Shown piece by piece: positions 5,011-64,000 of a stretch of DNA of 64,000 nt. Source of the stretch: Nostocoides sp. Soil756 (GTDB lineage Bacteria > Actinomycetota > Actinomycetes > Actinomycetales > Dermatophilaceae). The DNA is taken from assembly GCF_001428065.1 (NCBI RefSeq), contig NZ_LMSE01000004.1:563016-627015 (forward strand). The letters run 5' to 3'. The translations under genes were made by a program, and so were the position numbers. A model generated the notes under the pieces. The model saw nothing but the letters and a program-made list of their open reading frames with translations, was not told the DNA's origin and did not search any database. Every line of letters begins with the position of its first letter. Within the stretch, counting starts at the first letter, position 1.

Positions 5011-6114
5011 GTGGCGCACCAGTGGCGCGGAGTCATCCGCGAGTACGCCGAGCGCCTGCCGAGCCTGGCCGGCGCGCCGGTCGTGACCCTGCACGAGGGC
5101 GGGACGCCGCTCATCGCCTGCGAGGGCCTCTCCGAGCTCACCGGCGCCAACGTGCACGTCAAGTACGAGGGGCTGAACCCCACCGCGTCGTTCAAGGACC
5201 GCGGGATGACCGCCGCCATCTCGGCGGCCAAGCTCACCGGGGCCAAGGCCGTCATCTGCGCGAGCACCGGCAACACCTCGGCCAGTGCGGCCGCGTACGC
5301 GGTCAAGGCCGGGATGACGTGTGCCGTCCTGGTTCCCGACGGCAAGATCGCGATGGGCAAGCTGAGCCAGGCGATCGCCCACGGCGCCACCCTGATCCAG
5401 GTCGAGGGCAACTTCGACGACTGCCTCACGGTCGCCCGCAAGCTGGCCGAGTCCTACCCGGTCGAGCTGGTCAACTCGGTCAACCCCGCGCGCATCGAGG
5501 GCCAGAAGACGGCGGCCTTCGAGGTCGTCGACGCGCTCGGCGACGCCCCAGACATCCACGTCCTGCCGGTGGGCAACGCCGGCAACATCACGGCCTACTG
5601 GCGCGGGTACCGCGAGTACGCTTCTCCCACAGTCGGTCTCGGCGGCACGGTGCTCGATCCCGTGGCCACCCGCCGGCCGGCGATGTGGGGCTTCCAGGCC
5701 GCCGGCGCCGCGCCCATCGTGCTCGGCCACCCGGTCGACGACCCCGAGACCATCGCCACCGCCATCCGCATCGGCAACCCCGCGTCCTGGCGCCAGGCCG
5801 AGGCGGCCCGCGACGAGTCCGGCGGCCTCATCGACAGCGTCACCGACGACGAGATCCTCGCGGCGCACCGGCTGCTGTCCTCCACCGAGGGGATCTTCGT
5901 CGAGCCGGGCTCGGCCGCGAGCATCGCCGGGCTGCTGAAGATGCACCGCGCCGGCCGCATCCCGCGCGACGCCACGGTCGTGTGCACCGTCACCGGCCAC
6001 GGTCTCAAGGACCCGCAGTGGGCGCTGCGCACCGCCGACGGCTCAGAGGTCGTGCCCGTGCGGGTGCCGGTCGACGCGTACTCGGTCGCCTCCGCGCTGG
6101 GGCTCGAGGGGTGA
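5011..6114 (+). CDS. thrC: Threonine synthase
   Basis: 367 aa. PLP enzyme that converts O-phosphohomoserine to threonine and phosphate. The Schiff-base Lys is about residue 61 in [11 protein letters not shown], the phosphate-binding loop is STGNTSAS and the Gly-rich GNAGN segment lies near residue 190. Length matches the short, monofunctional bacterial class. It starts with GTG 3 nt after hom and overlaps thrB by 4 nt (GTGA). Confidence 0.96.
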
Positions 6115-7052
6115 GCGCGGTGCTGCCGGTGGGCGCCGCCGTCCGGGTGCGCGTCCCGGCGAGCAGCGCCAACCTCGGCCCCGGCTTCGACTCGGTGGGC
6201 TGCGCCCTCGGGATCTGGGACGAGTGCACCGCGACGGTGGTCGCCGAGCCCGGTCTCGTCGTCACCGTCGACGGGGAAGGGGCCGGCGCGGTCCCGCTCG
6301 ACGACAGCCACCTGGTCGTACGGGCGATGCGGGCCGCCTGGGCCGACCTCGGCGTGCCGCCGCCCGCGGGACTCCGCCTGGCCTGCCGCAACGCCGTGCC
6401 GCACGGGCGCGGGATGGGTTCCTCGGCCACCGCGATCGTCACCGGCATCGTGGCGGCCCAGGCCCTGGCCGACATCGGCGCCGGCCACTCCGACGGCGTG
6501 GTCGACCTCGCGTTCACCAACGACCTCGCCGCTCGCCTCGAGGGTCATCCCGACAACGCGTCGGCCAGCATCTTCGGTGGGGTGACGCTGTCGTGGACCG
6601 ACGACCGCGGCCACACCAGCACGGTGTCGCTGCCGGTGCACCCGGCCATCGCCCCCGTCGTCCTGGCCCCCGAGACCCAGCTCTCCACCGCCCGCGCGCG
6701 CTCGGTGCTGCCCCAGCAGGTGCGCCTGGCCGATGCCGCCGCCAACTCGGCCCGGGCAGCGCTGCTCGCCCACGCCGTGACGTCGGCGCCCGAGCACCTG
6801 CTCGAGGCCACTCGCGACTGGCTGCACCAGGAGGCGCGGCGCCCGTCCTACCCCGCGTCGATGGCGTTGGTCGACCGGCTGCGCGCGCAGGGGCACGCGG
6901 CGGCCGTCTCGGGGGCCGGCCCCTCGGTCATCGTGCTGGCGACCACCTCCACCGTCGAGGCCGCGCAGGCCCACGCGCCGGCCGGATGGCGCGCGCTGGC
7001 CCCGGGCATCCCCCCGGGCGGGGCGCACGTCGAGGTGCTTGCGGCCGGCTGA
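6111..7052 (+). CDS. thrB: Homoserine kinase
   Basis: 313 aa GHMP-family kinase that phosphorylates homoserine at the expense of ATP to supply ThrC. The N-terminal [12 protein letters not shown] motif and the ATP-binding loop [10 protein letters not shown] are intact, and the C-terminal GHMP motif SGAGPSV is present. The start is the GTG at 6111 that overlaps the thrC stop. The frame is open further upstream, but only as the shadow frame of thrC. It ends the amino-acid run, and a 217-nt leader separates it from rho. Confidence 0.95.
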
Positions 7053-10697: not shown

Positions 10698-10782
10698 CCG
10701 ACGCCGGCCGACGGACCGCGCGGGTCGGACACCCCGCGGCGCGGACGGGAATGGGTGGGGGGCCGCCTCCGTTTAGGTCACT

Positions 10783-10802
10783 GTGTGCCTGCTCTGGCAC
10801 AC
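10783..10802. promoter_or_regulatory. Perfect 7-bp inverted repeat in the rpmE upstream region
   Basis: Arms GTGTGCC (10783-10789) and GGCACAC (10796-10802) flank a 6-nt centre. Spacing and outer bases resemble CRP/FNR-family operators, although the inner bases differ from TGTGA/TCACA. It lies 100 nt from the luciferase-like gene start and 132 nt from rpmE. It abuts a possible -35 box TTGAGC (10803-10808), which is 17 nt before TACGGA (10826-10831). Confidence 0.5.
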
Positions 10803-10934
10803 TTGAGCGCTGGACCGGTTCACGGTACGGATGCGTTCCTGAGCGGCCTCATCACGAGGGTCGCAGGCGGGGCGCGAGAGGGCTTGCAGCACCGCGCTGA
10901 GCCCGCCGACCCGGACACATCCAAGGAGAGCATC

Positions 10935-11150
10935 GTGCAGAAGGACATCCACCCCGAGTACGTCGAGACCACGGTCACCTGTACCTGTGGCAACACGTTC
11001 ACCACCCACAGCACCGCGTCGAGCGGCAAGATCAGCGCCGACGTGTGCAGCAACTGCCACCCGTTCTACACGGGCAAGCAGAAGATCCTCGACACCGGTG
11101 GCCGCGTGGCCCGCTTCGAGGCCCGCTACGGCAAGAAGGCCGCCAAGTAG
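10935..11150 (+). CDS. rpmE: 50S ribosomal protein L31, zinc-binding form
   Basis: 71 aa. Component of the large ribosomal subunit near the central protuberance. The zinc-ribbon cysteines are present (CTCG near residues 15-17 and CSNC near 36-39), so this is the C+ zinc-containing paralogue. The non-zinc version induced by zinc limitation lacks them. Start GTG 10935 follows AAGGAGAG at 10923-10930. The gene lies between rho and prfA, as in other actinobacteria, and is followed by a strong hairpin. Confidence 0.96.
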
Positions 11151-11161
11151 CACCCCCGACG

Positions 11162-11191
11162 CGCCGGTCCGTCCCCCGGGACGGGCCGGCG
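11162..11191 (+). terminator. rpmE terminator hairpin
   Basis: Arms 11162-11175 and 11178-11191 pair over 14 bp with one G-U pair, beginning CGCCGG and ending CCGGCG. A weakly T-rich stretch TGTTCGTGT follows. It starts 11 nt after the rpmE stop codon. Confidence 0.7.
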
Positions 11192-11240
11192 TGTTCGTGT
11201 CCCGGGGCGGTCGGGCCGCCGACACCCCGGTTCGTCAGCC

Positions 11241-11292
11241 TCACCCCGCTTCGGAACCGGGGTGAAGTGCACATTTCGGGGTGACCCCGAAA
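11241..11292. promoter_or_regulatory. Cluster of palindromes upstream of prfA
   Basis: Two inverted repeats lie side by side. TCACCCCG (11241-11248) pairs with CGGGGTGA (11258-11265). TTTCGGGGT (11274-11282) and ACCCCGAAA (11284-11292) form a perfect 19-bp palindrome around one central base. The octamer CGGGGTGA recurs at 11277-11284. A GTGCAC hexamer (11267-11272) lies between the two. It could be an operator, a dispersed intergenic repeat or mRNA structure. prfA starts 28 nt downstream. Confidence 0.5.
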
Positions 11293-11320
11293 AGTCGAGG
11301 TCGAGACGGAGGAGGTCGGG

Positions 11321-12397
11321 ATGCTGGAGTCGGCGCAGGCGCTGGTCGCCGAGCACGCCGCGCTCGAGCGCGCCATGTCCGACCCGGCCGTCGCCTCCGA
11401 CCCCGCCCGGCTGCGCGAGGCCAACCAGCGCTACGCCGCCCTGGGCCCCACCGTCGCCGCGTACGCCGCCTGGGTCGCCGCCCGGGACGACCTCGGGGCC
11501 GCCCGCGAGCTGGTCGCCGAGGACCCTGCGTTCGCCGAGGAGCTCCCCGCGCTGGAGGCCGCCCTGGCCACCGCCGAGGACCGGCTGCGCCGCCTCCTCG
11601 TCCCGCGCGACCCCGACGACGAGCGCGACGTCATCCTCGAGGTCAAGGCCGGCGAGGGGGGCGAGGAGTCGGCCCTGTTCGCCGGGGACCTGCTGCGGAT
11701 GTACCTGCGCTACGCCGAGCGCCGCGGGTGGCGCGCCGAGGTCCTGGACGCCACCGCCTCCGACCTCGGCGGCTACAAGGACGTGCAGGTGTCGGTCAAG
11801 GCGCGCGGCGCCGCCCGGCCCGGCGAGGCACCGTGGGCACTGCTGAAGTACGAGGGCGGCGTCCACCGGGTGCAGCGTGTGCCCGTCACCGAGAGCCAGG
11901 GACGCATCCACACCAGTGCCGCGGGCGTCTGGGTGATGCCCGAGGCCGAGGAGGTCGAGGTCACCATCGACCCGAACGACCTGCGCATCGACGTCTTCCG
12001 CTCCAGCGGCCCCGGCGGCCAGAGCGTGAACACCACCGACTCGGCGGTACGCATCACCCACCTGCCCACCGGGCTCGTGGTCTCGTGCCAGAACGAGAAG
12101 AGCCAGCTGCAGAACCGGGAGGCCGCGCTGCGCGTGCTGCGCGCCCGGCTGCACCAGCTGGCGATGGACGAGCGGCACGCCGCCGACGCCGACGCCCGCA
12201 ACAGCCAGGTGCGCACCGTCGACCGCAGCGAGCGGATCCGCACCTACAACTTCCCCGAGAACCGGATCAGCGACCACCGCACCGGCTTCAAGGCCCACAA
12301 CCTCGACACGGTGCTCGACGGCGACCTCGACCCGGTCATCCGGTCCTGCGTCGACGCCGACGAGGCCGCCCGCCTCGCCGTGATCGCCGACGCATGA
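11321..12397 (+). CDS. prfA: Peptide chain release factor 1
   Basis: 358 aa. Recognises UAA/UAG in the ribosomal A site and triggers peptide release. The catalytic GGQ is visible in [16 protein letters not shown]. The N-terminal helical domain and the central codon-recognition region are of normal length. ATG 11321 is preceded by GGAGGAGG. The gene overlaps prmC by 4 nt (ATGA), so the factor and the enzyme that methylates its GGQ glutamine are made together. Confidence 0.97.
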
Positions 12398-45654: not shown

Positions 45655-46655
45655 CCCCGCTGGCCGGGCGGCGCGAGGTCGACGTCCCCTCCCTCGTCGC
45701 CGCGGCCCGGGAGGCGGACCCGCGCGCCCTCGGGCGGCTCCTCTCCCTCGTCGAGGACCGGAGCCCGGTCCTGCGCAAGGTGCTGGCGGCGCTCGCCCCG
45801 CACGCCGGGCGCGCCCACGTCGTGGGCCTCACCGGGCCCCCGGGCGTCGGCAAGTCGACCACGAGCAGCGCGGTGGTCGCGAGGTACCGCCGGCAGGGGC
45901 TGACGGTGGCGGTGCTGGCTGTCGACCCCACCTCGCCGTTCTCGGGCGGGGCGCTGCTCGGTGACCGGGTGCGGATGGGCGAGCACGCCGGCGACCGGGG
46001 CGTGTTCATCCGCTCGATGGCCACGCGGGGGCACCTCGGCGGCCTGTCCTCGGCCGCCCCGCAGGCGGTCCGGGTGCTCGACGCTGCGGGGTTCGACGTC
46101 GTGCTGCTCGAGACCGTGGGGGTCGGCCAGAGCGAGGTCGAGGTGGCCGGCACCGCCGACACCACCGTCGTGCTCGTGGCCCCGGGCCTGGGGGACGGGG
46201 TCCAGGCGGCCAAGGCCGGCATCCTCGAGGTGGCCGACGTGCTGGTGGTCAACCACGCCGACCGGCCGGGAGCCGACCGCACCGTGCGCGACCTGCGCGC
46301 CGCGGTCGCGCTGGGCGCTCGGGCGGACGGGGCGTGGCAGCCCGCGGTCGTGCGCACCGTGGCCACCACCGGCGAGGGCGTCGGGGCGCTGGTCGAGGCG
46401 GTCGCGGCGCACCGTGCCGCGCTGGGGGAGACCGGCCTGCTCGAACGCCGTCGCCACCGAGCCGCCCGCGAGGTCGAGGCCCTGGCCCTCGACGCCGTGC
46501 GGGCCCGGATCGCCGGCCTCGGCGGCGGTGACGGGCTCGTCCGGCTGGCGGCACGGGTGGCGGGCGGCGAGCTCGACCCGCACGGCGCGGCCGAGCGGCT
46601 GCTCACCGCGCTGGAGCCGCAGCCATCGGCCGAGGGGCTCAGCGAGCGTCGGTGA
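45651..46655 (+). CDS. meaB: MeaB-type GTPase, chaperone of B12-dependent acyl-CoA mutase
   Basis: 334 aa from a proposed CTG start at 45651. It loads and protects the cobalamin cofactor of methylmalonyl- or ethylmalonyl-CoA mutase. Walker A is [12 protein letters not shown], followed by [22 protein letters not shown], switch-region [13 protein letters not shown] and a base-recognition NHAD in place of the usual NKAD. A C-terminal dimerisation helix follows. No ATG, GTG or TTG precedes the conserved N-terminal helix region in this frame. The first GTG (45780) would remove the segment [21 protein letters not shown], which is a conserved part of the family. CTG 45651 overlaps the thiolase stop as CTGA, and CTG 45660 is the only alternative. 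It overlaps the GH65 gene tail to tail by 17 nt. Confidence 0.85.
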
Positions 46656-49176
46656 CCGGACCGTCGAAGGGCTCGACGACCTCGAAGGGGATGGGGTCGG
46701 GGACGCCCGCGGTGATCCGGCTCCCGTCGGCCCGGGTGCCGCCCAGCCGGGGGCGCCGGCCCAGCAGGCCGGACAGGCGCTCGCCGTGCCCGTCGAGCGT
46801 CACCACCACCGGCGTGCCGGGCGCGACCTCGTGCGCTTGCCCGCGCACCTCGACCGGCACGCTCGCCGCGCCCTCCTCCACCGTGAGCTCGAGCTCGTGC
46901 TCGGCCAGCCGCACCCGCAGCCGCGAGCCCCGCCACGTGAGCCGGAAGGTCAGCGAGCCCCAGCCCTCGGGCAGGCGCGGGTCGAAGCGCAGCATCCCCC
47001 CGTGGTCACGCATCCCGCCGAAGCCCCCCACCAGGGTCGCCCACACCCCGGCGGCGGACGCGATGTGCAGCCCGTCGACGGTGTTGTCGTGCAGGTCGGC
47101 GAGGTCGACGTAGAGGGCCCGGCAGAAGTACTCGTAGGCCGCCTCGTGGTAGCCGACCTCGGCCGCGACCACCGACTGGACGACCGCCGACAACGAGGAG
47201 TCACCCGTGGTGATCGGGTCGTAGTACTCGAAGTCGGCGCGCTTCTGGGCGGCGGTGAACCGGTCGCCCTGAAGGTAGAGCGCCAGCACGACGTCGGCCT
47301 GCTTGAGGACCTGGAAACGGTAGATCACCAGGGGGTGGTAGTGCAGCAGCAGGGGCCGCACGTCGAGAGGCGTGCGGCTGAGGTCCCACACCTCACGGTC
47401 GAGGAAGAAGTCGTCCTGGGGGTGGATGCCCAGGCCCTCGTCGAAGGGGATGTGCATGCCGTCGGCACAGGCCTGCCACTCGGCCGGCTCGTCGTCGCGC
47501 ACCTGGAGGTGCCGGTCGAGGCGGGCCCACTCCAGCGGGTGCTCGCGGCGCACCCGCTCGACCGCGCGGACGGCCTGCTCGAGGTTGGCGCGCGCCATCA
47601 CGTTGGTGAACAGGTTGTTGTTGACCACGGTGGTGTACTCGTCCGGGCCGGTCACGCCGTGGATGTGGAAGCTCGAGTCGCCGTTGCTGCGCCAGAAGCC
47701 GAGGGCGGCGTACATCCGGGCCGTCTCGACCAGGATGGCCACGCCGTCGCGCACGAGGAAGCCGACGTCGTCGGTGGCGGCCACGTACTGGACCAGGGCG
47801 TGGGCCACGTCGGCGTCGATGTGCACCTGGGCCGTCCCGGCGGCGTAGTACGCCGAGGCCTCCTCACCGTTGATGGTCCGCCACGGGAAGAGCGCGCCGG
47901 GCTGCGACATCTCGCGGGCGCGCTCCCGGGCGGCCGGCAGCATGCGGCTGCGGAAGGCCAGCAGGTTCCGGGCCAGCTCGGGCTGGGTGTAGGTGAGGAA
48001 CGGGGCGACGTAGACCTCGCTGTCCCAGAAGTAGTGGCCCTCGTAGCCCGACCCGGTGACGCCCTTGGCCGCGATCCCGTGCTGGTCGGCGCGGCCGGCG
48101 GCCTGTGCCAGCGAGAACAGGTTGTAGCGCACGGCCTGCTGGAGGGCCTCGGCGTGGGGCGCCCCCGCCCCGATCTCGATGTCGGCGCCGGCCCAGAACC
48201 GGTCGTACCACTCACGTTGCTGTCCGTGGTGGTCCTCGACGGCCCGGGTGCCGGTCCGGTCGAGGGTGCGCTCGCACCGGTCGGCCAGCTCACGCACGGG
48301 CAGGCCGCGCGAGGTGTGGTACGCCACGAGCTTCTCGATGCGCAGGGTGTGCCCCTCGCGGGCCTCGACCCGGTGGACCGCCTTGGCGAGGTCGTCCTCG
48401 GCCCGCGTGACGACCTCGTAGGGGTCGGTGCACCGCACGGTGTGGTCGGCCATCACGGCCACCGTCATGGCCGAGTTGCGGCACCGGTGGCCGAGCACCA
48501 GCCGGTGCTCGGTGGCGGCGTGCAGGTGGGGCAGCAGCACCCTCCCCTCGAAGGTCCCCGCCCGGCGGGGGTCGGCCGTCCCCGAGGTGTGCGCGGGCGC
48601 GTAGTACTCGTCCTCGCCGTCGAGGCGGTTCAGCAGCTGGGAGGAGACCACCACGGGCGCATCGCCCGAGAGCATCGTGACCTCCAGGGTCAGCACCACG
48701 AGGTGCCGCTCGGTCATCGACACCATCCGGCTGGACTCGACGCGGACCCGCTTGCCCGACGGGGTGCGCCAGACCAGGGAACGCCGCAGGATGCCGTCGC
48801 GCAGGTCGAGGCTGCGCTCGTACTCCTCGAGGTCGGCCATGCCGATGACGAGGGGCTCGTCGTCGACGTAGAGCTTCATCAGCTTGGCGTCGGGGACGTC
48901 GACGATCGTCTGCCCGGTGCGGGCGAAGCCGTACGCGGCCTCGGCGTGCCGGATCGGCCAGGTCTCGTGGAAGCCGTTGACGAAGGTGCCGTGCGCGTGG
49001 GCCTCGCGGCCCTCCTCGGGGTTGGCCCGCAGGCCGATGTAGCCGTTGGCCACCGCGAACAGGGTCTCGGTGAGGCCGAGGTCGCCGAGGTCGGGCGCGG
49101 TCTCGACCAGCCGCCACGGGTCGGCCGGGAAGCGGGTGCGGTCGAGCGGGTCGGCGCCCACCCGCCCCGACCTCAC
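46639..49176 (-). CDS. GH65 disaccharide phosphorylase (maltose/trehalose/kojibiose type)
   Basis: 845 aa. Phosphorolyses an alpha-linked glucose disaccharide to beta-glucose-1-phosphate and glucose or a related sugar. N-terminal beta-sandwich (about 20-290), then the (alpha/alpha)6 barrel. The general acid Glu is in TGPDEYTTVVNNN (near residue 511), and the barrel also holds the YYFWDSEVY-type segment GHYFWDSEVYVAPF. The phosphate-site region is near LLHYHPLVIYRFQVLKQADVVLAL. A C-terminal beta-domain follows. The exact disaccharide cannot be read from the sequence. GTG 49176 overlaps the stop of the upstream HAD gene, which fits the usual phosphorylase/beta-phosphoglucomutase pairing. Confidence 0.9.
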   Translation of the reverse strand: MRSGRVGADPLDRTRFPADPWRLVETAPDLGDLGLTETLFAVANGYIGLRANPEEGREAHAHGTFVNGFHETWPIRHAEAAYGFARTGQTIVDVPDAKLMKLYVDDEPLVIGMADLEEYERSLDLRDGILRRSLVWRTPSGKRVRVESSRMVSMTERHLVVLTLEVTMLSGDAPVVVSSQLLNRLDGEDEYYAPAHTSGTADPRRAGTFEGRVLLPHLHAATEHRLVLGHRCRNSAMTVAVMADHTVRCTDPYEVVTRAEDDLAKAVHRVEAREGHTLRIEKLVAYHTSRGLPVRELADRCERTLDRTGTRAVEDHHGQQREWYDRFWAGADIEIGAGAPHAEALQQAVRYNLFSLAQAAGRADQHGIAAKGVTGSGYEGHYFWDSEVYVAPFLTYTQPELARNLLAFRSRMLPAARERAREMSQPGALFPWRTINGEEASAYYAAGTAQVHIDADVAHALVQYVAATDDVGFLVRDGVAILVETARMYAALGFWRSNGDSSFHIHGVTGPDEYTTVVNNNLFTNVMARANLEQAVRAVERVRREHPLEWARLDRHLQVRDDEPAEWQACADGMHIPFDEGLGIHPQDDFFLDREVWDLSRTPLDVRPLLLHYHPLVIYRFQVLKQADVVLALYLQGDRFTAAQKRADFEYYDPITTGDSSLSAVVQSVVAAEVGYHEAAYEYFCRALYVDLADLHDNTVDGLHIASAAGVWATLVGGFGGMRDHGGMLRFDPRLPEGWGSLTFRLTWRGSRLRVRLAEHELELTVEEGAASVPVEVRGQAHEVAPGTPVVVTLDGHGERLSGLLGRRPRLGGTRADGSRITAGVPDPIPFEVVEPFDGPVTDAR

Positions 49177-49928
49177 GTGAGGTCCTGCAGGTCGGCCACG
49201 ACCCGGTGGGCGCCGGCCGAGCGCAGCGCACTCTCGCCGGCGCCCCGGTCGACACCGACCACGAGGCCGAAGTCGCCTGCGGCCCCGGCCCGCACGCCCG
49301 AGACGGCGTCCTCGACCACCACGGCCGAGCTCGGGGCGGCACCACAGGTGCGCGCGGCCTCGAGGAAGGTGTCGGGGGCGGGCTTGCCGGGCAGGCCCAG
49401 GGCAGCGGCGACCCGGCCGTCGACGACGGTGACGAACCGGTCGGCGAGCCCGGCGGCCGCCAGCACGGCGTGCGCGTTGGCCGACGAGGAGACCACGGCC
49501 AGCGGGACCCCGAGGTCGCGCAGGTGGTCCAGCAGCGTGACCGAGCCGGGGTAGGGCTGCACGCCGTCGCGCTCGAGCACCGCCGTGAACGCGTCGTTCT
49601 TGCGGTTGCCGAGGCCGCACACGGTCTCGGCCTGGGGGGGATCGCCGGGGTCGCCGCGCGGCAGGTCGATGCCGCGGGCGGCCAGCAGGTCGGCGACCCC
49701 GTCGTAGCGGGGCTTGCCGTCGACGTGGGCGAAGTAGTCGGTCTCGGTGTACGGCGAGGTGTCGGCCCCCACCGTCGCGGGGTGGTCGGGGGCGAGGCCG
49801 CCGAGGAAGGCGTTGAACATCTCCGACCAGGCGGTCATGTGCACCGCGGCCGTGGGGGTGAGGACCCCGTCGAGGTCGAAGAGCACGGCGGCGTAGTCGC
49901 GCCAGGCCACTGGTCTCGAGCCGTTCAC
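49173..49928 (-). CDS. HAD-family beta-phosphoglucomutase-like protein
   Basis: 251 aa. HAD catalytic motif FDLDGVLTPTA with D18 nucleophile and D20. Motif II is VVSSSANA. The conserved Lys is in GLPGKPAPDTFLEA and motif III acids are in VVVEDAVSGVRAG. The helical cap contains DGKPRYDGVADLLAARGI. This pattern fits beta-phosphoglucomutase, which converts the beta-glucose-1-phosphate made by GH65 to glucose-6-phosphate. A simple phosphatase is the alternative. GTG 49928 sits 7 nt after a TAGCGT box, so it is probably leaderless and heads the operon. Confidence 0.88.
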   Translation of the reverse strand: MNGSRPVAWRDYAAVLFDLDGVLTPTAAVHMTAWSEMFNAFLGGLAPDHPATVGADTSPYTETDYFAHVDGKPRYDGVADLLAARGIDLPRGDPGDPPQAETVCGLGNRKNDAFTAVLERDGVQPYPGSVTLLDHLRDLGVPLAVVSSSANAHAVLAAAGLADRFVTVVDGRVAAALGLPGKPAPDTFLEAARTCGAAPSSAVVVEDAVSGVRAGAAGDFGLVVGVDRGAGESALRSAGAHRVVADLQDLT

Positions 49929-52425: not shown

Positions 52426-52480
52426 ACCGGCCGGCCGACCCCGCACCGACCACCTCGTCCCGATGGGGGAGAATCCGAGC

Positions 52481-53449
52481 ATGACGCAGACGCCTGACCC
52501 GCTGGGCACCCGCGGTGCCGTCGACCTGTCGAAGGCGGCCGGCCCGGGCGCCGGCACCCCGACCGGCCCGTCCGGGGCCGCGGCTCCCGGCGCCGCCGCG
52601 CCCGCCATCCCGCCGGGGCTCGTCGTCGAGGTGACCCCCGAGAACCTCCAGCAGGCCCTCACCCGCACCGTCCAGGTGGCCGGGCTGCTCGTCCTGTGGT
52701 CGTCGGGGCATCCGCAGACGCGCGACCTGGTCGACACCGTGGCGCGGGTCGCCGCCCGCCAGGACGGCCGGGTCATCGTGCTCACGGCCGACCTCACCGG
52801 GCACCCGGAGCTGCTCCAGATCTTCTCGCCGGTGCTCCAGCAGGCCTTCGGCCAGGCCACCGTCCCGGCCACCTTCGGCCTGCTCCAGGGCCAGCCGGTC
52901 CCGCTCTTCCCGGGCCTGGCCGACGACGCGCAGGTCACCCAGGCCGTCGAGCAGCTGCTCCAGGCGGCGGTGCAGAACGGCATCACCGGCCGCGTCGACC
53001 TCGGCCCGGTGGAGGGAGGTCCCGACGAGGACGCGGTGCCGCCGCTGCACCAGGCGGCCTACGACGCCATCGAGCGCGGCGACCTGGCCGCTGCGACGGC
53101 CGCCTACGAGCAGGCACTGGCCGAGGACCCCAAGGACGAGGATGCGCGTCTCGGGTTGGCGCAGGTGCGGCTGATGGAGCGCACCAGCGGCGTCGACCTG
53201 GCCGCCGCCCGGGCCGCCGCGGCCGCCGATCCCACCGACGTCGGGGCCGCGATCGTCGTGGCCGACCTCGACGTCCTCGGCGGCCACGTCGAGGACGCCT
53301 TCAGCCGGCTCGTCGACCTGGTCCGCACCACCACCGACGACGACCGTGACCGGGCGCGCACCCACCTCATCGAGCTCTTCTCCGTCGTCGGCAACGACGA
53401 CGAGCGGGTGCGCCGGGGCCGCACGGCCCTGATGAGCGCGCTGTTCTGA
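52481..53449 (+). CDS. Thioredoxin-like/TPR protein, CnoX (YbbN) type
   Basis: 322 aa. A Pro/Ala/Gly-rich N-terminus is followed by a thioredoxin-like domain (about 52-165). Its active-site position reads LWSSGHPQTRD, with no CxxC pair, so it cannot act as a disulfide reductase. Tetratricopeptide-like helices (about 185-250, AAYDAIERGDLAAATAAYEQALAEDPKDEDARLGLAQV) and a C-terminal helical part follow. This matches the CnoX/YbbN co-chaperone layout. ATG 52481 follows GGGGGAG. It is 2 nt before the first esterase gene. Confidence 0.86.
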   Translation: MTQTPDPLGTRGAVDLSKAAGPGAGTPTGPSGAAAPGAAAPAIPPGLVVEVTPENLQQALTRTVQVAGLLVLWSSGHPQTRDLVDTVARVAARQDGRVIVLTADLTGHPELLQIFSPVLQQAFGQATVPATFGLLQGQPVPLFPGLADDAQVTQAVEQLLQAAVQNGITGRVDLGPVEGGPDEDAVPPLHQAAYDAIERGDLAAATAAYEQALAEDPKDEDARLGLAQVRLMERTSGVDLAAARAAAAADPTDVGAAIVVADLDVLGGHVEDAFSRLVDLVRTTTDDDRDRARTHLIELFSVVGNDDERVRRGRTALMSALF

Positions 53450-53451
53450 GC

Positions 53452-54504
53452 GTGCCGCCGACCCTCGTCGAGCGCCGGATGCGCTTCCGGCTCGACCCGC
53501 AGGACCCGGCCGTCACCGACGTCTCGCTCGAGTGCGACGATGCCGTGCCCGGCCCGCGTGCCCTGGTACGCGACGCCGGTGGCTGGTCCCTGGAGCTGGC
53601 CGACCCCGGGCTCCAGCGCGTGGAGTACCGCTTCGTCATCCATCGTGGCGAGGCCGTCGAGACCGTGCTCGACCCGGCCACACCGTGCACCGTGCGCACC
53701 GCGTTCGGCGAGCGGTCGGTGCTCGAGCGGCCGGGGTACCAGGAGCCGGCATGGCTGGCGGCCCACCCCCCGCCCGGGCGCTACGACCCGTTCACCCTGG
53801 CCGGTGAGACCCGCGACGACGTGCCGGTCACCGTCTGGTCGCCCGCCGGTCTGGGGGACGCCGACGACGCGCCGCTGCTGCTGGTGCACGACGGCCCCGA
53901 GTACGACGACCTGGCGTCCCTGACCCGCTACTGCGCGGTGTCGGTCGCGGCCGGGGTGCTGCCGCCGCACCGGGTGGCGCTGGTGCATCCGGTGCTGCGG
54001 GACGCCTGGTACTCCGGCTCGCCGGCGTTCCTGCGCACGATGGCCGACGCCGGGCTCGACCGGCTGGGCGAGCGGTACGCCGTCACGGGGCCGGTGGTGG
54101 TGATGGGGGCCAGCCTCGGCGGTCTCACCGCGCTGCTGCTGGGCCTCACGGCGGCGCCGCGCGTGGGCGGGGTCCTGGCGCAGTCGGGCTCGTTCTTCCA
54201 GATGCGCCACGACGGCGCCGAGAGCGGTTTCCGCTACTTCGACCGCATCTCGCGCCGGGTGCAGTCCATCCTCGACATGCGCCACACCGACCATCCCCTC
54301 GTGGTGGGGATGACCTGCGGGGCCCTCGAGGAGAACGCGGCCAACAACCGCGACATGGCGGCCGCGTTGCGCCGGGCCGGGCACGACGTGCGCTACCGCG
54401 AGGTGCCCGACCTGCACAACTACACCGCCTGGCGCGACGCCCTCGATCCCGCGCTCACCGAGGTACTGCGCACCCTCTGGTCCGCTCCGGGCGCCGACGG
54501 CTGA
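53452..54504 (+). CDS. Enterochelin esterase (Fes)-like alpha/beta hydrolase
   Basis: 350 aa. An N-terminal immunoglobulin/CBM48-like domain (about 1-100) precedes an esterase-D/Fes-type alpha/beta hydrolase domain. The nucleophile Ser is in VVMGASLGGLTALL and the catalytic His probably in VPDLHNYTAWRDAL, close to the C-terminus. Fes proteins hydrolyse catecholate siderophore lactones, but no siderophore genes are nearby, so the substrate here is open. GTG 53452 starts 2 nt after the CnoX-like stop, and the next two genes are a second esterase and an ATP-grasp protein. Confidence 0.82.
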   Translation: MPPTLVERRMRFRLDPQDPAVTDVSLECDDAVPGPRALVRDAGGWSLELADPGLQRVEYRFVIHRGEAVETVLDPATPCTVRTAFGERSVLERPGYQEPAWLAAHPPPGRYDPFTLAGETRDDVPVTVWSPAGLGDADDAPLLLVHDGPEYDDLASLTRYCAVSVAAGVLPPHRVALVHPVLRDAWYSGSPAFLRTMADAGLDRLGERYAVTGPVVVMGASLGGLTALLLGLTAAPRVGGVLAQSGSFFQMRHDGAESGFRYFDRISRRVQSILDMRHTDHPLVVGMTCGALEENAANNRDMAAALRRAGHDVRYREVPDLHNYTAWRDALDPALTEVLRTLWSAPGADG

Positions 54505-54511
54505 CCGCCGC

Positions 54512-54517
54512 TAAGGT
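54512..54517 (+). promoter_or_regulatory. Candidate -10 before the second esterase
   Basis: TAAGGT ends 7 nt before ATG 54525, so this gene may also be expressed from its own leaderless transcript inside the cluster. Confidence 0.42.
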
Positions 54518-54524
54518 CGCTCGC

Positions 54525-55271
54525 ATGCAGCGACGCAGCGTGCGGCTCGGCGTCCCCGGGCTCGAGGGTGACCTCGAGGTCGTCCGGCACGGCCACTGGG
54601 GCCGGCCGGTGCTGCTCTTCCCGTCCGAGGCCGGCAGCGCCCGCGACGCCGAGGGCAACGGGATGCTGGACGCCGTGCGAGCGCTGGTCGAAGCGGGCCG
54701 GATGAGCCTGTTCTGCGTCGACTCCCTCGACGGCCGGTCGTGGTCCGACACGTCCCTGCCCACCGAGGAGCGCGCCCGGCGGGCCGGGACGTACACCGCA
54801 TGGCTCGAGCAGGCCGTGCTGCCCTGGGTGCAGGAGCAGAGCGGCGGCTCGACCGAGATGGTGGCCGTGGGTCCCTCGCTCGGGGCGTACCACGCCGTGC
54901 GTCTGGCCCTGACCCGCGCCGACGTCGTGCCGCTGGCCATCGGCCTCTCGGGGACCTACGACCCCACGGCCTGGAACGGCTGGGGCGAGCTCGGCGACGC
55001 CACGTACTTCGCCAACCCGACGGCCTTCGTTGCGAACGCCCACGGCGACCACCTCGCGTGGCTGCGCGCGCGCGTCTCGCTGCTGCTGGTCGTCGGGCAG
55101 GGCCCGTTCGAGGTCTCTCCCACCCGGGCGCTGCCCGGCACCCGCGCCTTCGCGCAGGTCCTGGCGCGCCAGGGCATCCGCCACGAGCTCGACGTGTGGG
55201 GCCACGACAGCGCCCACGACTGGCCCTGGTGGCAGCGCCAGCTGGCCCACCACCTGCCCCGCTTCGTCTGA
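54525..55271 (+). CDS. Esterase-like alpha/beta hydrolase
   Basis: 248 aa. Compact alpha/beta hydrolase fold with nucleophile Ser in VAVGPSLGAYHAVRLAL, an oxyanion-type GHWGRPVLLFPSEAGSARD region and a C-terminal His in VWGHDSAHDWPWWQRQL. This resembles the esterase/lipase proteins that are often found with ATP-grasp genes in actinobacteria. No signal peptide is seen, so it acts in the cytoplasm. Substrate unknown. It lies 20 nt after the Fes-like gene and 17 nt before the ATP-grasp gene. Confidence 0.82.
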   Translation: MQRRSVRLGVPGLEGDLEVVRHGHWGRPVLLFPSEAGSARDAEGNGMLDAVRALVEAGRMSLFCVDSLDGRSWSDTSLPTEERARRAGTYTAWLEQAVLPWVQEQSGGSTEMVAVGPSLGAYHAVRLALTRADVVPLAIGLSGTYDPTAWNGWGELGDATYFANPTAFVANAHGDHLAWLRARVSLLLVVGQGPFEVSPTRALPGTRAFAQVLARQGIRHELDVWGHDSAHDWPWWQRQLAHHLPRFV

Positions 55272-55288
55272 CCGGAAGGACCACGCCC

Positions 55289-56554
55289 GTGAGCAACCCC
55301 ACCGACCACCTCGTCGGACTCCTCCTCGGTGCCGAGGAGGACTGGCCCACGGCGTTCGAGGCGCTGGCCCGGCGGCTGGGGGTGCTGCGCGCGCCCGACG
55401 GCAGCGAGCACACCGTCACCACCGAGCGGCTGACCATCGAGCCGTTCAACCTGCGCGACCGGGTGCGCCACGAGCTCGTCATCGACCGCCTCGCGCACTG
55501 GTACTACCACCCGCGCGAGTGGCTGAAGAAGGCCGCGCTGATGGACGACGTGTACCTGCTGAACAGCCCCTTCACGTTCCAGTCGATGGAGAAGCACTCG
55601 GCCTACTGTGCGCTGATGCGGCTGGGCTTCTCGGTGCCCGACACCGTGCTGGTGCCGTACAAGAACCCCGTCGACAACGCCCGGTGGGCCTACACCTCGG
55701 CCAAGTACAACCGCGCCTTCGACCTCGAGGAGATCGCCGAGCGGCTGGGCTACCCGCTCTACATGAAGCCGTTCGACGGTGGTGGCTGGCGCGGGGTGTC
55801 TCAGGTGCGCGACCGTGAGGACCTGCACCACTCCTACGACGACTCCGGCGAGATGCTGATGCACCTGCAGGCGTCGGTGCCCGACTTCGAGCACTTCGCG
55901 CGCTCGCTGACCATCGGCCCCGAGACCATGGTGATGAAGTTCGAGCCCGACCGGCCGATGCACGAGCGGTACACGGTGGCGCACGGGTTCCTCTCGGACG
56001 CCGTCGGGGCCGAGGTGCTGACGACCAGCCAGACCGTGAACGCGTTCTTCCGGTGGGAGTTCAACTCCTGCGAGATGCTCGTCAAGAACGGCGTCGTGTA
56101 CCCCATCGACTACGCCAACGCCTGCCCCGACGTCGCGGTCACCTCGCTGCACTACTACTTCCCGTGGGCGATGAGCGCGCTGCTGCGCTGGAGCGTCTTC
56201 TGCGCGGTCACCGGCCGGACGGCGCGCACCCAGGTCGAGACCGACCCGTGGTTCGCGGTGGCCGACGACCCGGCCCTGGACCACCAGGGCCGGCTGGCGG
56301 GGTACCAGCGGCTGGCCGACGAGCACTTCGAGACCGAGCGCTACCGGGAGTTCTGCGCGAGCACCCTGCCCCACCTGGACGAGCTGGTGTTCGACTGGAT
56401 CACCGGCGAGGACTTCCGCGCGCTGCTGACCTCGACCATCCAGCAGACCTACCCGCCGCACGAGTGGGAGCGCTTCGAGGCGCACTTCGGCGGCCTGCTG
56501 GGGCTGTGGGTGTCCGACGAGCAGGGGCGCCGGGCCGCGGCGGCGGACGCCTGA
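55289..56554 (+). CDS. ATP-grasp domain protein of unknown substrate
   Basis: 421 aa. ATP-grasp features are visible: a pre-domain YLLNSPFTFQSMEKHSAYCALMRLGFSVPDTVLVP, a nucleotide-binding Lys and glycine loop in YPLYMKPFDGGGWRGVSQV (about 155-173), and candidate metal-binding residues in FFRWEFNSCEML and VYPIDYANACPD. Such enzymes ligate a carboxylate to an amine or thiol through an acyl-phosphate. Overall organisation recalls RimK-like proteins, but the C-terminal third is not assignable. GTG 55289 follows GGAAGGA. It closes the Fes-like/esterase/ATP-grasp set, which points to making and hydrolysing an ester- or amide-linked small molecule. Confidence 0.78.
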   Translation: MSNPTDHLVGLLLGAEEDWPTAFEALARRLGVLRAPDGSEHTVTTERLTIEPFNLRDRVRHELVIDRLAHWYYHPREWLKKAALMDDVYLLNSPFTFQSMEKHSAYCALMRLGFSVPDTVLVPYKNPVDNARWAYTSAKYNRAFDLEEIAERLGYPLYMKPFDGGGWRGVSQVRDREDLHHSYDDSGEMLMHLQASVPDFEHFARSLTIGPETMVMKFEPDRPMHERYTVAHGFLSDAVGAEVLTTSQTVNAFFRWEFNSCEMLVKNGVVYPIDYANACPDVAVTSLHYYFPWAMSALLRWSVFCAVTGRTARTQVETDPWFAVADDPALDHQGRLAGYQRLADEHFETERYREFCASTLPHLDELVFDWITGEDFRALLTSTIQQTYPPHEWERFEAHFGGLLGLWVSDEQGRRAAAADA

Positions 56555-57633: not shown

Positions 57634-59298
<1,665 letters not shown>

Positions 59299-59386
59299 GT
59301 CGCGATCCTCGCAGACCACCCCCGCGCCGGCACAGGATCGGTGTCCGCAGGATCACAGGGTGGCGAGGCTGTCGGCCCTGGCGGCG

Positions 59387-60635: not shown

Positions 60636-62861
60636 TCATATGCCGAGCTCGGGGGCCACCTTCTCGGTGCCGGGCACCGGCGCCAGGTAGACCGTCGAGA
60701 GCCGGGCGACCCGCACGGTCACCGAGTAGGGCTGGTCGTTCCACGGGGTCGCTTCGGCCTCGAGGACGGCGCCGGCCTGGCTCGGGCTGCTCGCCTCGTC
60801 GTAGCCGCTGGTGTCGAGCACGACCTCCCAGCGCCCCGAGCGCGGGACGCCCACGCGCACCCACTCCTTGTCCTCCCCGCTGTAGTTGACGATGGAGGCG
60901 ACGACGTCGCCGGTGCCGTCGGCGTTCTCGAAACGCAGGTAGGACAGCAGGTTGCCGGTGTTGTCGTCGGCGTCGAGCCAGCGGAAGCCGGCCGGCTGGG
61001 CGTCGAGCGCCCACAGCGCCGGGTGCTCGCGGTAGAGGGTGTTGAGCTGCTTGACCAGCGCGTGCACCCGGTAGTGCGCCGCATGGTCGAGCAGCCACCA
61101 GTCGAGCGAGCGTCCGTCGGCCCACTCGCCGGGCTGGGCGAACTCCGAGCCCATGAACAGCAGCTGCTTGCCGGGGTGGCTCCACATGTAGGCCAGGAAG
61201 GCCCGCAGGGTGGCGAGCTGGTCGGGCCGCTCGCCCGGGATCTTGGTGACCAGAGAGCCCTTGCCGTGCACGACCTCGTCGTGGCTGATCGGCAGCACGA
61301 AGTTCTCGCTGAAGGCGTACATCAGCGAGAACGTCAGCAGGTTGTGGTGGTACTGGCGGTGCACCGGCTCCTCGTGCAGGTAGCGGAGGGTGTCGTTCAT
61401 CCAACCCATGTTCCACTTCAGCCCGAAGCCGAGGCCGCCGGCCGAGGTGGGCTTGGTGACGCCCGGCCACGAGGTCGACTCCTCGGCGATGGTGACGATG
61501 CCGGGCACCCGCTTGTAGGCGGTGGCGTTGGCCTCCTGGAGCAGCCCGATGGCCTCGAGGTGCTCGCGCCCGCCGTGGACGTTGGGGATCCACTCGCCGT
61601 CGCGGCGCGAGTAGTCGAGGTAGAGCATCGAGGCCACGGCGTCGACCCGCAGGCCGTCGACGTGGAACTCCTCGAGCCAGTACACGGCGTTGGCCACGAG
61701 GAAGTTGCGCACCTCGAGGCGGCCGAAGTCGAACACGTGCGTGCCCCAGTCGGGCTGGTCACCGCGGCGCGGGTCCGGGTGCTCGTAGAGGGGCAGCCCG
61801 TCGAAGCGCGCCAGGGCGAACTCGTCGCGGGGGAAGTGGCCCGGCACCCAGTCGAGGATGACGCCCACGCCGGCCCGGTGCAGCGCGTCGACGAGGTACT
61901 TGAAGTCGTCGGGGGTGCCGAAGCGGGCGGTCGGCGCGTAGTACCCGGTGACCTGGTAGCCCCACGACGGTCCGTAGGGGTGCTCCATCACGGGGAGGAA
62001 CTCGACGTGGGTGAAGCCGAGGTCGGTGACGTAGTTGACCAGGTGCTCGGCCAGGTCGCGGTAGGTCATGCCCTGGCGCCACGAGCCGAGGTGGACCTCG
62101 TAGACGCTCATCGGCGTGGTGTGCGGGTCGCTGGCGGCGCGGCGCTCCATCCAGGCGTCGTCCCCCCACACGTGGTGGCTGTCGTCGACCACGGAGCCGG
62201 TGCGCGGCGGGCACTCGGTGCGCCGCGCCATCGGGTCGGCCTTGGTGCGCACGCCGTCGTCGGCGCCGCGGATCTCGTACTTGTAGACCTCACCGGCGCC
62301 CACCCCCGGCACGAAGAGCTCCCAGACCCCGCTGGAGCCGATCAGCCGCATCGGGTGCATCCGCCCGTCCCAGCCGTTGAAGTCGCCGACCACGCGCACG
62401 GCCTTGGCCCGCGGGGCCCAGACCGCGAACGAGGTACCGCGCACGGTGCCCATCGGGCCGTCGTACTCGCGCACCCGCGCGCCCAGGACGTTCCACAGCT
62501 CCTCGTGGCGCCCCTCGCCGACCAGGTGCAGGTCCACCTCACCGAGGGTGGGGGCGAACCGGTACGGGTCGTCCTGCTCGTGCTCGATGCCGTCGCCCCA
62601 GGCGACGAGCAGCCGGTAGTCCATGGTGGCGGTGGCGTCGGTGCGGACCCCGGTCCACACCCCCTCGGCCTCGTGCTCGAGGGTGAGCTCCTCGCCGTCC
62701 TCGAAGCGGACCCGCACGGCGCTCGCGAGGGGCTTCACGACGCGGATGCGCAGCCCGCCCGGCTCGAGGTGCTGGCCGAGGAGGTCGTGCGGCTGCTGGT
62801 GGCGGCCTTGGACCAGCGCGGTGATGGCGCCGCCGACCTCGGGGCTGGGGGTGGGAGTCAC
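60636..62861 (-). CDS. glgB: 1,4-alpha-glucan branching enzyme
   Basis: 741 aa GH13 enzyme that introduces alpha-1,6 branches into glucan. It has an extra N-terminal beta-domain (about 1-110) and a CBM48 (about 125-225, FAVWAPRAKAVRVVGDFNGWDGR). The catalytic barrel carries the Asp nucleophile in VDGLRVDAVASMLYLDY, the acid Glu in IVTIAEEST and Asp in LPISHDEVVHGKGSL. A C-terminal beta-sandwich ends the protein. GTG 62861 follows AAGGAG and overlaps the maltokinase stop (GTGA), so the two are translated together. Confidence 0.96.
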   Translation of the reverse strand: MTPTPSPEVGGAITALVQGRHQQPHDLLGQHLEPGGLRIRVVKPLASAVRVRFEDGEELTLEHEAEGVWTGVRTDATATMDYRLLVAWGDGIEHEQDDPYRFAPTLGEVDLHLVGEGRHEELWNVLGARVREYDGPMGTVRGTSFAVWAPRAKAVRVVGDFNGWDGRMHPMRLIGSSGVWELFVPGVGAGEVYKYEIRGADDGVRTKADPMARRTECPPRTGSVVDDSHHVWGDDAWMERRAASDPHTTPMSVYEVHLGSWRQGMTYRDLAEHLVNYVTDLGFTHVEFLPVMEHPYGPSWGYQVTGYYAPTARFGTPDDFKYLVDALHRAGVGVILDWVPGHFPRDEFALARFDGLPLYEHPDPRRGDQPDWGTHVFDFGRLEVRNFLVANAVYWLEEFHVDGLRVDAVASMLYLDYSRRDGEWIPNVHGGREHLEAIGLLQEANATAYKRVPGIVTIAEESTSWPGVTKPTSAGGLGFGLKWNMGWMNDTLRYLHEEPVHRQYHHNLLTFSLMYAFSENFVLPISHDEVVHGKGSLVTKIPGERPDQLATLRAFLAYMWSHPGKQLLFMGSEFAQPGEWADGRSLDWWLLDHAAHYRVHALVKQLNTLYREHPALWALDAQPAGFRWLDADDNTGNLLSYLRFENADGTGDVVASIVNYSGEDKEWVRVGVPRSGRWEVVLDTSGYDEASSPSQAGAVLEAEATPWNDQPYSVTVRVARLSTVYLAPVPGTEKVAPELGI

Positions 62862-64000
62862 GAAGGGTCTCCTTGGGGGATGGGGGGAGGTGCGTGCTCG
62901 GTGAGGCGGCGGACGGCCGCCCAGGGGATGCCGACCCAGGCGGGCCGGTTGCGGGCTTCGTAGACGACCTCGTACATCGCCTTGTCGAGCTCGAAGGCGG
63001 CGAGCAGGGGGCCGAGGTCGCGCGGGTCAGCACCGGCCGCGGCGGCGTAGCCGTCGAGGAAGGCCTGCTGGGCGGCGGTGACCCAGTCGCGGGCGGAGTG
63101 CCCGACGACCTGCTCGCGGGTGCCTCCGACGTAGTCGAAGCTGCGCAGCATGCCGGCCACGTCGCGGACCCACTGGTCGGGCAGCGAGCGCTCGGCCAGC
63201 GGGCGCAGCGGCTCGCCCTCGAAGTCGAGCAGCACCCACCCGCGCTCGGGCGAGTGCAGGACCTGCCCGAGGTGGTAGTCGCCGTGGATGCGCTGGAGGT
63301 CGGGCCACGGCCCCGCCGCCGCGGCCTCGAGGACGGCCTCGACCGCCGGGCGGGCCGAGGAGAGCTCGGGCACGGCCGCGACGGCGGCGTCGATCCGCGC
63401 GCGGACGGCGGCCAGGATGGCGTCGACCTGCGCCGGGCTCGTGGGGGTGGTGCCGAGGGTGCTCGCCAGCACCCGGTGCACCTCGGCCGTCGCGGCGCCG
63501 AGGTCGCGGGCGGGTCCGGTGAAGTCGGCACCGCTCTCGGCCGCCCGCAGGGCGACCCGCCAGGCGTCCTCGACCCCGGGCAGGAACTCCTGGGCGAACG
63601 CGAGGTGGCCGGTCGCGTCGCGGTCGCCCTCGGGCCCCGGGTGGGGCCACGCGCCGAGGACCGACCCGACGACGGCCGGGACCCGGCGGGAGCCGGCGTC
63701 GACCAGCGCGCCCTGGAGGACGACGTCGGGGTTCTCGCCGGGCGAGAGCATCCGGAAGACCTTGACGATGAGAGGCACGTGGTGCCCGGCCTCGTCGTCG
63801 GTGTCGAGGATGACCGAGGTGTTCGACTGCTCACCGGTGAGCACCCGTGACGAGCGCACGCGTACGGCGGCGTCCCAGCTGGGCTGGGGCACGCCGGCCA
63901 CCGCGTCCTCGGGGGCGTCGGTGGCCGACGACGACGCCGCCTGCGCCCGGCCCTGGACGAGCTCGAGGAGCAGGGTGGCGTAGACGGGGTCGTGCGGGGC
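62858..64000 (-). CDS. mak: Maltokinase, N-terminus beyond the window
   Basis: 380 residues visible. The frame stays open to the window edge at 64000, so the start is missing. It phosphorylates maltose to maltose-1-phosphate, the donor used by GlgE to extend alpha-glucan. The protein-kinase-like fold shows SSRVLTGEQSNTSVIL, the catalytic loop QRIHGDYHLGQVLHS and the metal-binding LLDFEGEPLRPLAERSLPDQWVRDVAGMLRSFDY, which together are characteristic of actinobacterial maltokinases. A GTG at 63901 is not the start, because the family N-terminal region (PVYATLLLELVQG) lies upstream. Trehalose synthase and GlgE are expected beyond the edge. Confidence 0.92.
   Translation of the reverse strand, partial: APHDPVYATLLLELVQGRAQAASSSATDAPEDAVAGVPQPSWDAAVRVRSSRVLTGEQSNTSVILDTDDEAGHHVPLIVKVFRMLSPGENPDVVLQGALVDAGSRRVPAVVGSVLGAWPHPGPEGDRDATGHLAFAQEFLPGVEDAWRVALRAAESGADFTGPARDLGAATAEVHRVLASTLGTTPTSPAQVDAILAAVRARIDAAVAAVPELSSARPAVEAVLEAAAAGPWPDLQRIHGDYHLGQVLHSPERGWVLLDFEGEPLRPLAERSLPDQWVRDVAGMLRSFDYVGGTREQVVGHSARDWVTAAQQAFLDGYAAAAGADPRDLGPLLAAFELDKAMYEVVYEARNRPAWVGIPWAAVRRLTEHAPPPIPQGDPS

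Follow-up and report, generated by a model that had tools for sequence, protein, structure and literature searches.

A conserved trio of two alpha/beta hydrolases and a RimK-fold ATP-grasp enzyme as the candidate core of a carrier-free pathway in actinobacteria

We analysed a three-gene locus in a stretch of 64,000 nucleotides (the window) from Nostocoides sp. Soil756. The genes lie on the + strand and encode a Fes-like alpha/beta hydrolase (Fes; 53452–54504, GTG start, 350 aa), a second alpha/beta hydrolase (Est2; 54525–55271, ATG start, 248 aa) and an ATP-grasp enzyme with a predicted RimK fold (AGR; 55289–56554, GTG start preceded by GGAAGG, 421 aa). The open reading frames (ORFs) of this strand confirm the arrangement proposed in an earlier, sequence-only reading, with gaps of 20 nt between Fes and Est2 and 17 nt between Est2 and AGR. 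The gene directly upstream, for a CnoX-like (thioredoxin/TPR) protein (52463–53449, + strand), is separated from the start of Fes by 2 nt. Its product matches the Pfam model TPR_20 at 86.7 bits and a thioredoxin-like model only below threshold. The label CnoX-like is upheld by an AGR-adjacent homologue in a related locus (L132), where TPR_20 and Thioredoxin both score above cut-off. This gene is a conserved neighbour in close relatives from the window's family and was not found in most distant-family loci.

The absence of carrier-protein, siderophore and ribosomal-peptide (RiPP) genes had been remarked on before, and we likewise saw none among the neighbours scanned, which were part of the ORFs between 46639 and 63901. 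The same set of neighbours held no catecholate siderophore genes and no GCS2 or circularly permuted ATP-grasp (CP-ATP-grasp) genes. There is no graspetide-type precursor peptide gene in the 20- and 17-nt gaps of the trio. An anti-phage defence system was considered and rejected, as the trio has no PADLOC family match at E ≤ 0.01.

Fes and Est2 both belong to PF00756 (cut-off 22 bits), Fes scoring 36.9 and Est2 44.5 bits, and each has conserved Ser-acid-His residues. The candidate triad of Fes, S221-E293-H322, is invariant in 25 aligned rows and is also kept in two divergent (type II, see below) copies. The description 'Fes-like' holds as a statement about the domain and fails as an assignment to enterochelin esterase, since Fes scores 66.7 bits with the equivalog model NF007758, whose cut-off is 222. 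The sole trace of Enterochelin_N was a match below threshold in a type II copy of Fes. In Est2 the predicted nucleophile and histidine are S118 and H231, and the acid is probably E196 or possibly D223. All four residues are invariant in 27 aligned rows; in a wider alignment set E196 is not. The closest folds to the predicted structure of Est2 (pLDDT 95.7) are Ag85C, feruloyl esterases and CE1 esterases.

AGR reaches the Pfam ATP-grasp models only below threshold, and its predicted structure (pLDDT 86.8) has an ATP-grasp fold. The best VIA-align row is RimK (5zk6; Z 20.8, rmsd 2.8, 263 aligned, residues 7–309), with RimK, ArgX and LysX among the top structural rows (Z 18–21); the fold also fits the kinases PPIP5K and ITPK (Z 18). 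An extra C-terminal helical part spans about residues 310–421. Residues K80, K102, K160, R205, E262, D274 and N277 are conserved, distant short forms of AGR included. Judging from position, K102, K160, E262, D274 and N277 would serve in ATP and metal binding. In sequence AGR stays below the cut-offs of family models: it scores 16.3 bits with TIGR00768 (RimK alpha-L-glutamate ligase family, rimK_fam; cut-off 143.4) and 15.1 bits with the D-alanine--D-alanine ligase model PF07478 (cut-off 24). Neither ATPgrasp_N nor LAL_C2, by which we looked for an L-amino acid ligase (LAL) domain, was found at E ≤ 0.1, and similarity to LAL-type ligases is weak. Identity to the window's AGR is 64–86% across 40 aligned relatives, so the product is more likely to be a conserved molecule than an antibiotic that varies between strains.

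The three genes are present or absent together. Of 59 genomes drawn from the family, 37 carry AGR; all 37 also have Fes and 36 of them have Est2, and the remaining 22 lack all three (Fisher 1e-16 for Fes and 3e-15 for Est2 with AGR, kinship ignored). In a draw of 396 genomes from the phylum, AGR is found in 29, Est2 in 29 (26 in common with AGR) and Fes in 29 (25 in common with AGR); 18 of the 29 AGR genomes keep the order Fes-Est2-AGR. Co-occurrence persists without linkage, for example in genomes G085 and G183. One genus (G077, G153 and G310) has Est2 but no AGR, with Est2 lying beside a LAL-like gene, and one genome (G279) has AGR and neither esterase. Among the best 80 of 496 AGR relatives, a sample that leans to close relatives, 34 loci have both esterases, 24 have Fes alone, 11 have Est2 alone and 11 have neither, counted on the strand of AGR within about 2.5 kb. 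Across the neighbourhoods of 34 representative loci, the trio alone recurs widely. Gene-neighbourhood analysis therefore finds the trio together in both draws rather than only rarely, and the earlier proposal that the three genes are one functional unit is borne out by their shared presence and absence. Their joint retention or loss in many actinobacteria makes it very probable that they form a single undescribed pathway, one that builds or processes a small molecule of peptide-like character.

By profile score we divided the esterases into types I and II, a division of our own; both esterases of the window are type I. In the window's family, type I Est2 scores 414–460 bits and type II 154–184 bits; the corresponding ranges for Fes are 237–518 and 170–204 bits. 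Replacement between the Est2 types gave a Fisher value of 6e-7 on genome counts and p 0.5 in an independent-pair sign test, both from type lists assembled by hand, with about 3–4 changes on the AGR tree. The pattern may reflect few independent swaps, and we claim no significance for it.

In the majority of relatives the trio makes up only part of the system. In 26 of the 37 AGR-bearing family genomes it is accompanied by a second module, a divergent Fes (Fes II) with an S51-peptidase-like gene (S51). S51 is present in 26 of the 59 family genomes, the same ones as Fes II and all with AGR, and the module is absent from all 22 AGR-less genomes. It is joined by an L-amino-acid-ligase-like gene, LALb, in every one of the 19 loci read of the 26, and the order LALb-S51-FesII is identical in all 19. 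At E ≤ 1e-170, LALb is found in 5 of the 396 phylum genomes, each with AGR. Its nearest solved relative is the L-amino acid ligase 4wd3 (E 5e-19); LALa and LALb of the extended clusters are both LAL relatives by sequence (4wd3, 3vot, BacD). The window's genome has no match to LALb at E ≤ 1e-60, none to S51 at E ≤ 1e-6, and no Fes II.

Further afield, short AGR, CP-ATP-grasp and GCS2 genes occur together in two distant loci (L127 and L131); the single GCS2 match in the window's genome is weak (23.4 bits) and unlinked to the trio. ABC-2 transporter genes lie alongside in five loci (L116, L119, L122, L123 and L146), a count made with no background comparison. Genes in most of the relatives' high-GC loci were called with a model trained on the window genes, and a 628-aa call at L122:11768–13654 probably has a wrong start. 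AGR has no match in plasmids, phages or viral contigs, nor short AGR in plasmids and viral contigs. Phyla other than the window's own were covered through a type II Est2 query in plasmids (14 records, 5 read). An ATP-grasp gene lies beside an Est2-family hydrolase in three of the five plasmid loci read (Bacillota, Alphaproteobacteria); in those of Thiodictyon (L151) and Rhizobium lusitanum (L153), none was found beside Est2 by the queries used.

We tentatively favor a reading that puts the trio at the heart of a so far undescribed ATP-grasp pathway, cytoplasmic and carrier-free, which would yield a peptide- or amide-linked product and in which the hydrolases would take off an ester or pass it on. 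The predicted catalytic residues are kept in all three proteins. AGR would use ATP to turn a carboxylate into an acyl phosphate and join this to a small molecule through an amine (possibly a hydroxyl), so that an amide or peptide results. On this intermediate Est2 and Fes would next either cleave off an ester group or transfer it; transfer by Est2 is considered because the transesterase Ag85C is among its nearest folds. In genomes that have them, LALa, LALb and LALc would attach more amino acids and the S51 protein would do the trimming, and the window's organism would have the minimal form of the pathway. We infer this chemistry, product and order of steps, and for a peptide pathway the case rests on the relatives because the window's genome lacks LALb, S51 and Fes II. 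The L-amino-acid-ligase-like and GCS2 partners in relatives strengthen the idea of AGR as an amide ligase, and an ABC-2 type exporter alongside in some of them would fit a secreted product. Points that weigh against the reading are the weak sequence similarity of AGR to LAL-type ligases, a fold that suits kinases as well, and the genomes that have Est2 but no AGR or AGR but neither esterase. A bolder version, which we regard as rather unlikely, makes AGR and an obligatory Est2 a ligase-transacylase pair, with transfer in place of hydrolysis. It would define a widespread new class of carrier-free pathways for peptide natural products or cofactors, with up to three LAL-like enzymes and the S51 protein added in many actinobacteria and with comparable pairings of an ATP-grasp enzyme and a hydrolase in Bacillota and Alphaproteobacteria.

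One alternative is salvage or detoxification: the esterases would hydrolyse an ester conjugate that the cell has imported or made itself, and AGR would re-conjugate or recycle the carboxylate set free. Imported siderophore esters are the usual substrates of Fes-type enzymes, the minimal form has two hydrolases for one ligase, and in one locus (L138) a gene for an M20 peptidase comes after the type II operon. No dedicated importer recurs across the 34 representative loci, however; the transporters in the five loci are of the ABC-2 type, usually exporters, and the extra LAL-like ligase of relatives speaks for synthesis. We consider salvage unlikely. Another option is tagging, with AGR attaching an amino acid to a protein or to a ribosomally made peptide and the hydrolases taking this tag off or processing it. 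Structural proximity to RimK, ArgX and LysX, the 28.1 bits of short AGR with rimK_fam and the CnoX-like neighbour in the window's family are in keeping with tagging, but both AGR forms fall far below the rimK_fam cut-off, no carrier protein co-varies among the recurrent neighbours (ORFs of at least 100 aa), and esterases as a rule do not cleave amide tags; we judge it quite improbable.

Modification of a sugar or storage glucan, with AGR as a kinase or acyl-activating enzyme and the hydrolases as carbohydrate esterases, has very little probability in our view. Genes for phosphoglucomutase (PGM), GlgB and maltokinase (Mak) are close by in many family loci, GlgC, GlgA and an alpha-amylase-type gene accompany Est2-AGR in a distant locus (L130), and the fold rows include CE1 esterases for Est2 and inositol phosphate kinases for AGR. 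Yet PGM, GlgB and Mak are common housekeeping genes with no match in most distant loci, and the invariant residues of AGR fit ATP-grasp ligases. The glycogen link, clear in the window's family and L130 and absent from most distant loci, was accordingly set low. That the genes are chance neighbours with no common function, for which we found only the general abundance of alpha/beta hydrolases, is practically dismissed by the co-occurrence and order counts of the 59- and 396-genome draws and by the unlinked co-occurrence.

On the carrier-free pathway reading, an unassigned trio becomes a candidate pathway with a parts list and a strong co-occurrence signal, in which one esterase type may be able to replace the other. 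Since ATP-grasp pathways need few genes and are easily expressed, the product is open to search by deletion and metabolite comparison. No description of this trio was found among the titles and abstract openings returned by a literature search.

Several known systems resemble it in part. Fes shares with enterochelin esterase a PF00756 hydrolase with an N-terminal region, and this is its best equivalog match; it differs in its score (66.7 versus 222 bits) and in scanned neighbours that lack siderophore genes. Amidoligase clusters of GCS2 and circularly permuted ATP-grasp genes, which Iyer et al. are said to have described in 2009, are approached by the distant short AGRs that adjoin both gene types (L127 and L131), whereas the window's locus adjoins neither. 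The dipeptide pathways of L-amino acid ligases (BacD of bacilysin) likewise use carrier-free ATP-grasp ligases, to which LALa and LALb are related by sequence; AGR, in contrast, is without ATPgrasp_N or LAL_C2, carries a C-terminal helical part of its own and is coupled to a pair of esterases. The usual metal motif of RimK-type ATP-grasp ligases is ExN. AGR residues 7–309 share the fold of RimK, LysX and ArgX (Z 18–21) but carry E262...D274xxN277 in place of that motif, and AGR further differs from these enzymes in a sequence far under the family models, in its extra C-terminal part and in its esterase partners.

The Fes-like esterase gene (53452-54504), the gene for a second alpha/beta hydrolase (Est2; 54525-55271) and that for the RimK-fold ATP-grasp enzyme (AGR; 55289-56554) follow one another on the + strand with gaps of 20 nt (Fes-Est2) and 17 nt (Est2-AGR), just as the sequence-only reading had set them out. 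Both hydrolases score above the PF00756 cut-off and make up two of the three such matches in the window's own genome (four PF00756 matches in all), in which no further clear AGR relative was found; AGR itself gives sub-threshold ATP-grasp matches only. The trio is flanked by genes for a GH65 protein (46639-49620), phosphoglucomutase (57634-59319), GlgB (60636-62861) and a maltokinase-like protein (Mak; 62858-63901). Phosphoglucomutase, GlgB and Mak genes come after AGR in many relatives within the family, and in a distant locus (L130) GlgC, GlgA and an alpha-amylase-type gene adjoin Est2-AGR.

Comparison of the predicted AGR structure (model built from 41 aligned sequences; pLDDT 86.8) assigns residues 7-309 to an ATP-grasp fold, with RimK as the top match (Z 20.8, rmsd 2.8, 263 aligned) and ArgX, LysX, PPIP5K, ITPK, synapsin and D-Ala ligases next (Z 17-18). 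An extra helical part from residue ~310 on is lacking in distant short AGRs, and K80, K102, K160, R205, E262, D274 and N277 are retained even in these short forms (28% identity). The Est2 model (pLDDT 95.7) is similar in fold to Ag85C, feruloyl esterases and CE1 domains. A Ser and a His are invariant in the aligned rows of both hydrolases and are also present in more distant copies. Going by their position and by what is known of the families, we take the conserved residues of all three enzymes to be catalytic. Inspection of the trio proteins by eye showed no evident N-terminal signal sequence, and the enzymes are probably cytoplasmic.

Separate searches of the same draw of 396 genomes from the phylum, with identical handles and counts, found AGR (E<=1e-10), Est2 (profile E<=1e-15) and Fes (profile E<=1e-15) in 29 genomes each. 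AGR and Est2 share 26 genomes and AGR and Fes share 25. AGR occurs without Est2 in G279, G157 (partial) and G013 (truncated at the edge of a contig), and Est2 without AGR in three genomes of one genus (G077, G153, G310). AGR is present in all 25 genomes with a strong Fes (E<=1e-50); the four Fes matches without AGR (G107, G246, G334, G091) are each weak (E 1e-22 to 1e-29). In a draw of 59 genomes from the family to which the window belongs, AGR and Fes occur in the identical 37 and Est2 in 36 of these (the exception is G440); all three are missing from the other 22, which include a member of the window's own genus (G396). The Fisher values computed for this co-occurrence do not allow for shared ancestry.

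The order Fes-Est2-AGR on one strand recurs in 18 of the 29 AGR-bearing genomes in the phylum draw (short loci read). Among the best 80 of 496 AGR-relative loci in public genomes, some on cut contigs, both esterases lie beside AGR in 34, Fes only in 24 (mostly Actinoplanes relatives), Est2 only in 11 and neither in 11. Across 34 representative loci the sole widely recurring genes are the trio itself. Fes and Est2 are together at C1:2387955-2389719 in G085, with AGR apart at C1:572234, and in G183 they lie on C229 with AGR on C204; the esterases thus persist elsewhere in the genome after linkage is lost, so the co-occurrence goes beyond mere physical linkage. ABC-2 type transporter genes adjoin the trio in five loci (L116, L119, L122, L123, L146), in the last overlapping the called Fes gene; this would be compatible with export.

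Some relatives carry an extended module. G183 (L139) has L-amino-acid-ligase-like genes LALa and LALc, then LALb, an S51-peptidase-like gene, and type II Fes and Est2 (types split by profile score); similar sets adjoin AGR in G299 (L124), G075 (L122) and G177 (L130), and G279 (L117) has LALc-LALa-AGR. The nearest PDB relative of LALa (E 5e-16) and LALb (E 5e-19) is the L-amino acid ligase 4wd3; the S51 match falls slightly under the Pfam cut-off (22.2 versus 23.9 bits). LALb (E<=1e-170) occurs in 5 of the 396 phylum genomes, all with AGR. Of the 59 family genomes, 26 encode the S51 protein; these are exactly the genomes with Fes II, and all 26 have AGR. The order LALb-S51-FesII holds in all 19 loci read from these 26; Est2II comes next in 13 and is missing in six, whose genomes carry Est2 I. 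Over the 37 AGR genomes of the family, 22 have Est2 I only, 12 II only, two both and one neither; one type may replace the other, though the AGR tree has few independent swaps. In L138, MR_MLE (enolase-superfamily; 5559-6614) and M20 peptidase (10741-12132) genes border the LALb-S51-FesII-Est2II operon. In three loci of one genus (L140, L141, L142), Est2 II adjoins a LAL-like ATP-grasp gene, with AGR and strong Fes missing, perhaps an independent two-gene form.

Two distant loci (L127:8845-12247, L131:6501-10594) hold, beside Est2, a row of a short AGR (312-318 aa), a circularly permuted ATP-grasp-like gene (CP_ATPgrasp_2-like, under the Pfam cut-off) and, directly after, a GCS2 carboxylate-amine ligase gene, whose L131 product exceeds the NCBIfam carboxylate-amine ligase cut-off (521 versus 371 bits). 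This row is a second amidoligase system with the same partners. Beyond the phylum, a LAL-like ATP-grasp gene is directly followed by an Est2-family hydrolase gene on plasmids of Peptoclostridium (L150:7776-9741) and of the rhizobia Pararhizobium and Sinorhizobium (L152:6816-8714 and L154:6807-8735, genera listed without regard to order); the pairing was not found in two other plasmids read outside the phylum. The Peptoclostridium pair has DAHP synthase genes on its flanks.

Three findings point to a stand-alone ligase pathway: ATP-grasp enzymes recur together with these hydrolases, further partners are of the LAL-like, GCS2 and S51 kinds, and no carrier domains were found among the scanned neighbours of the trio. 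The pathway would yield a small molecule with peptide or amide linkage, and Est2 and Fes would serve in ester removal or transfer. That the bond made by AGR is an amide, that Est2 and Fes work on this same molecule and how the steps are ordered are our inferences. The set has no name in the family libraries or in the largely non-subscription literature searched, and may be described elsewhere; in kind, we would place the trio with the known ATP-grasp ligase pathways.
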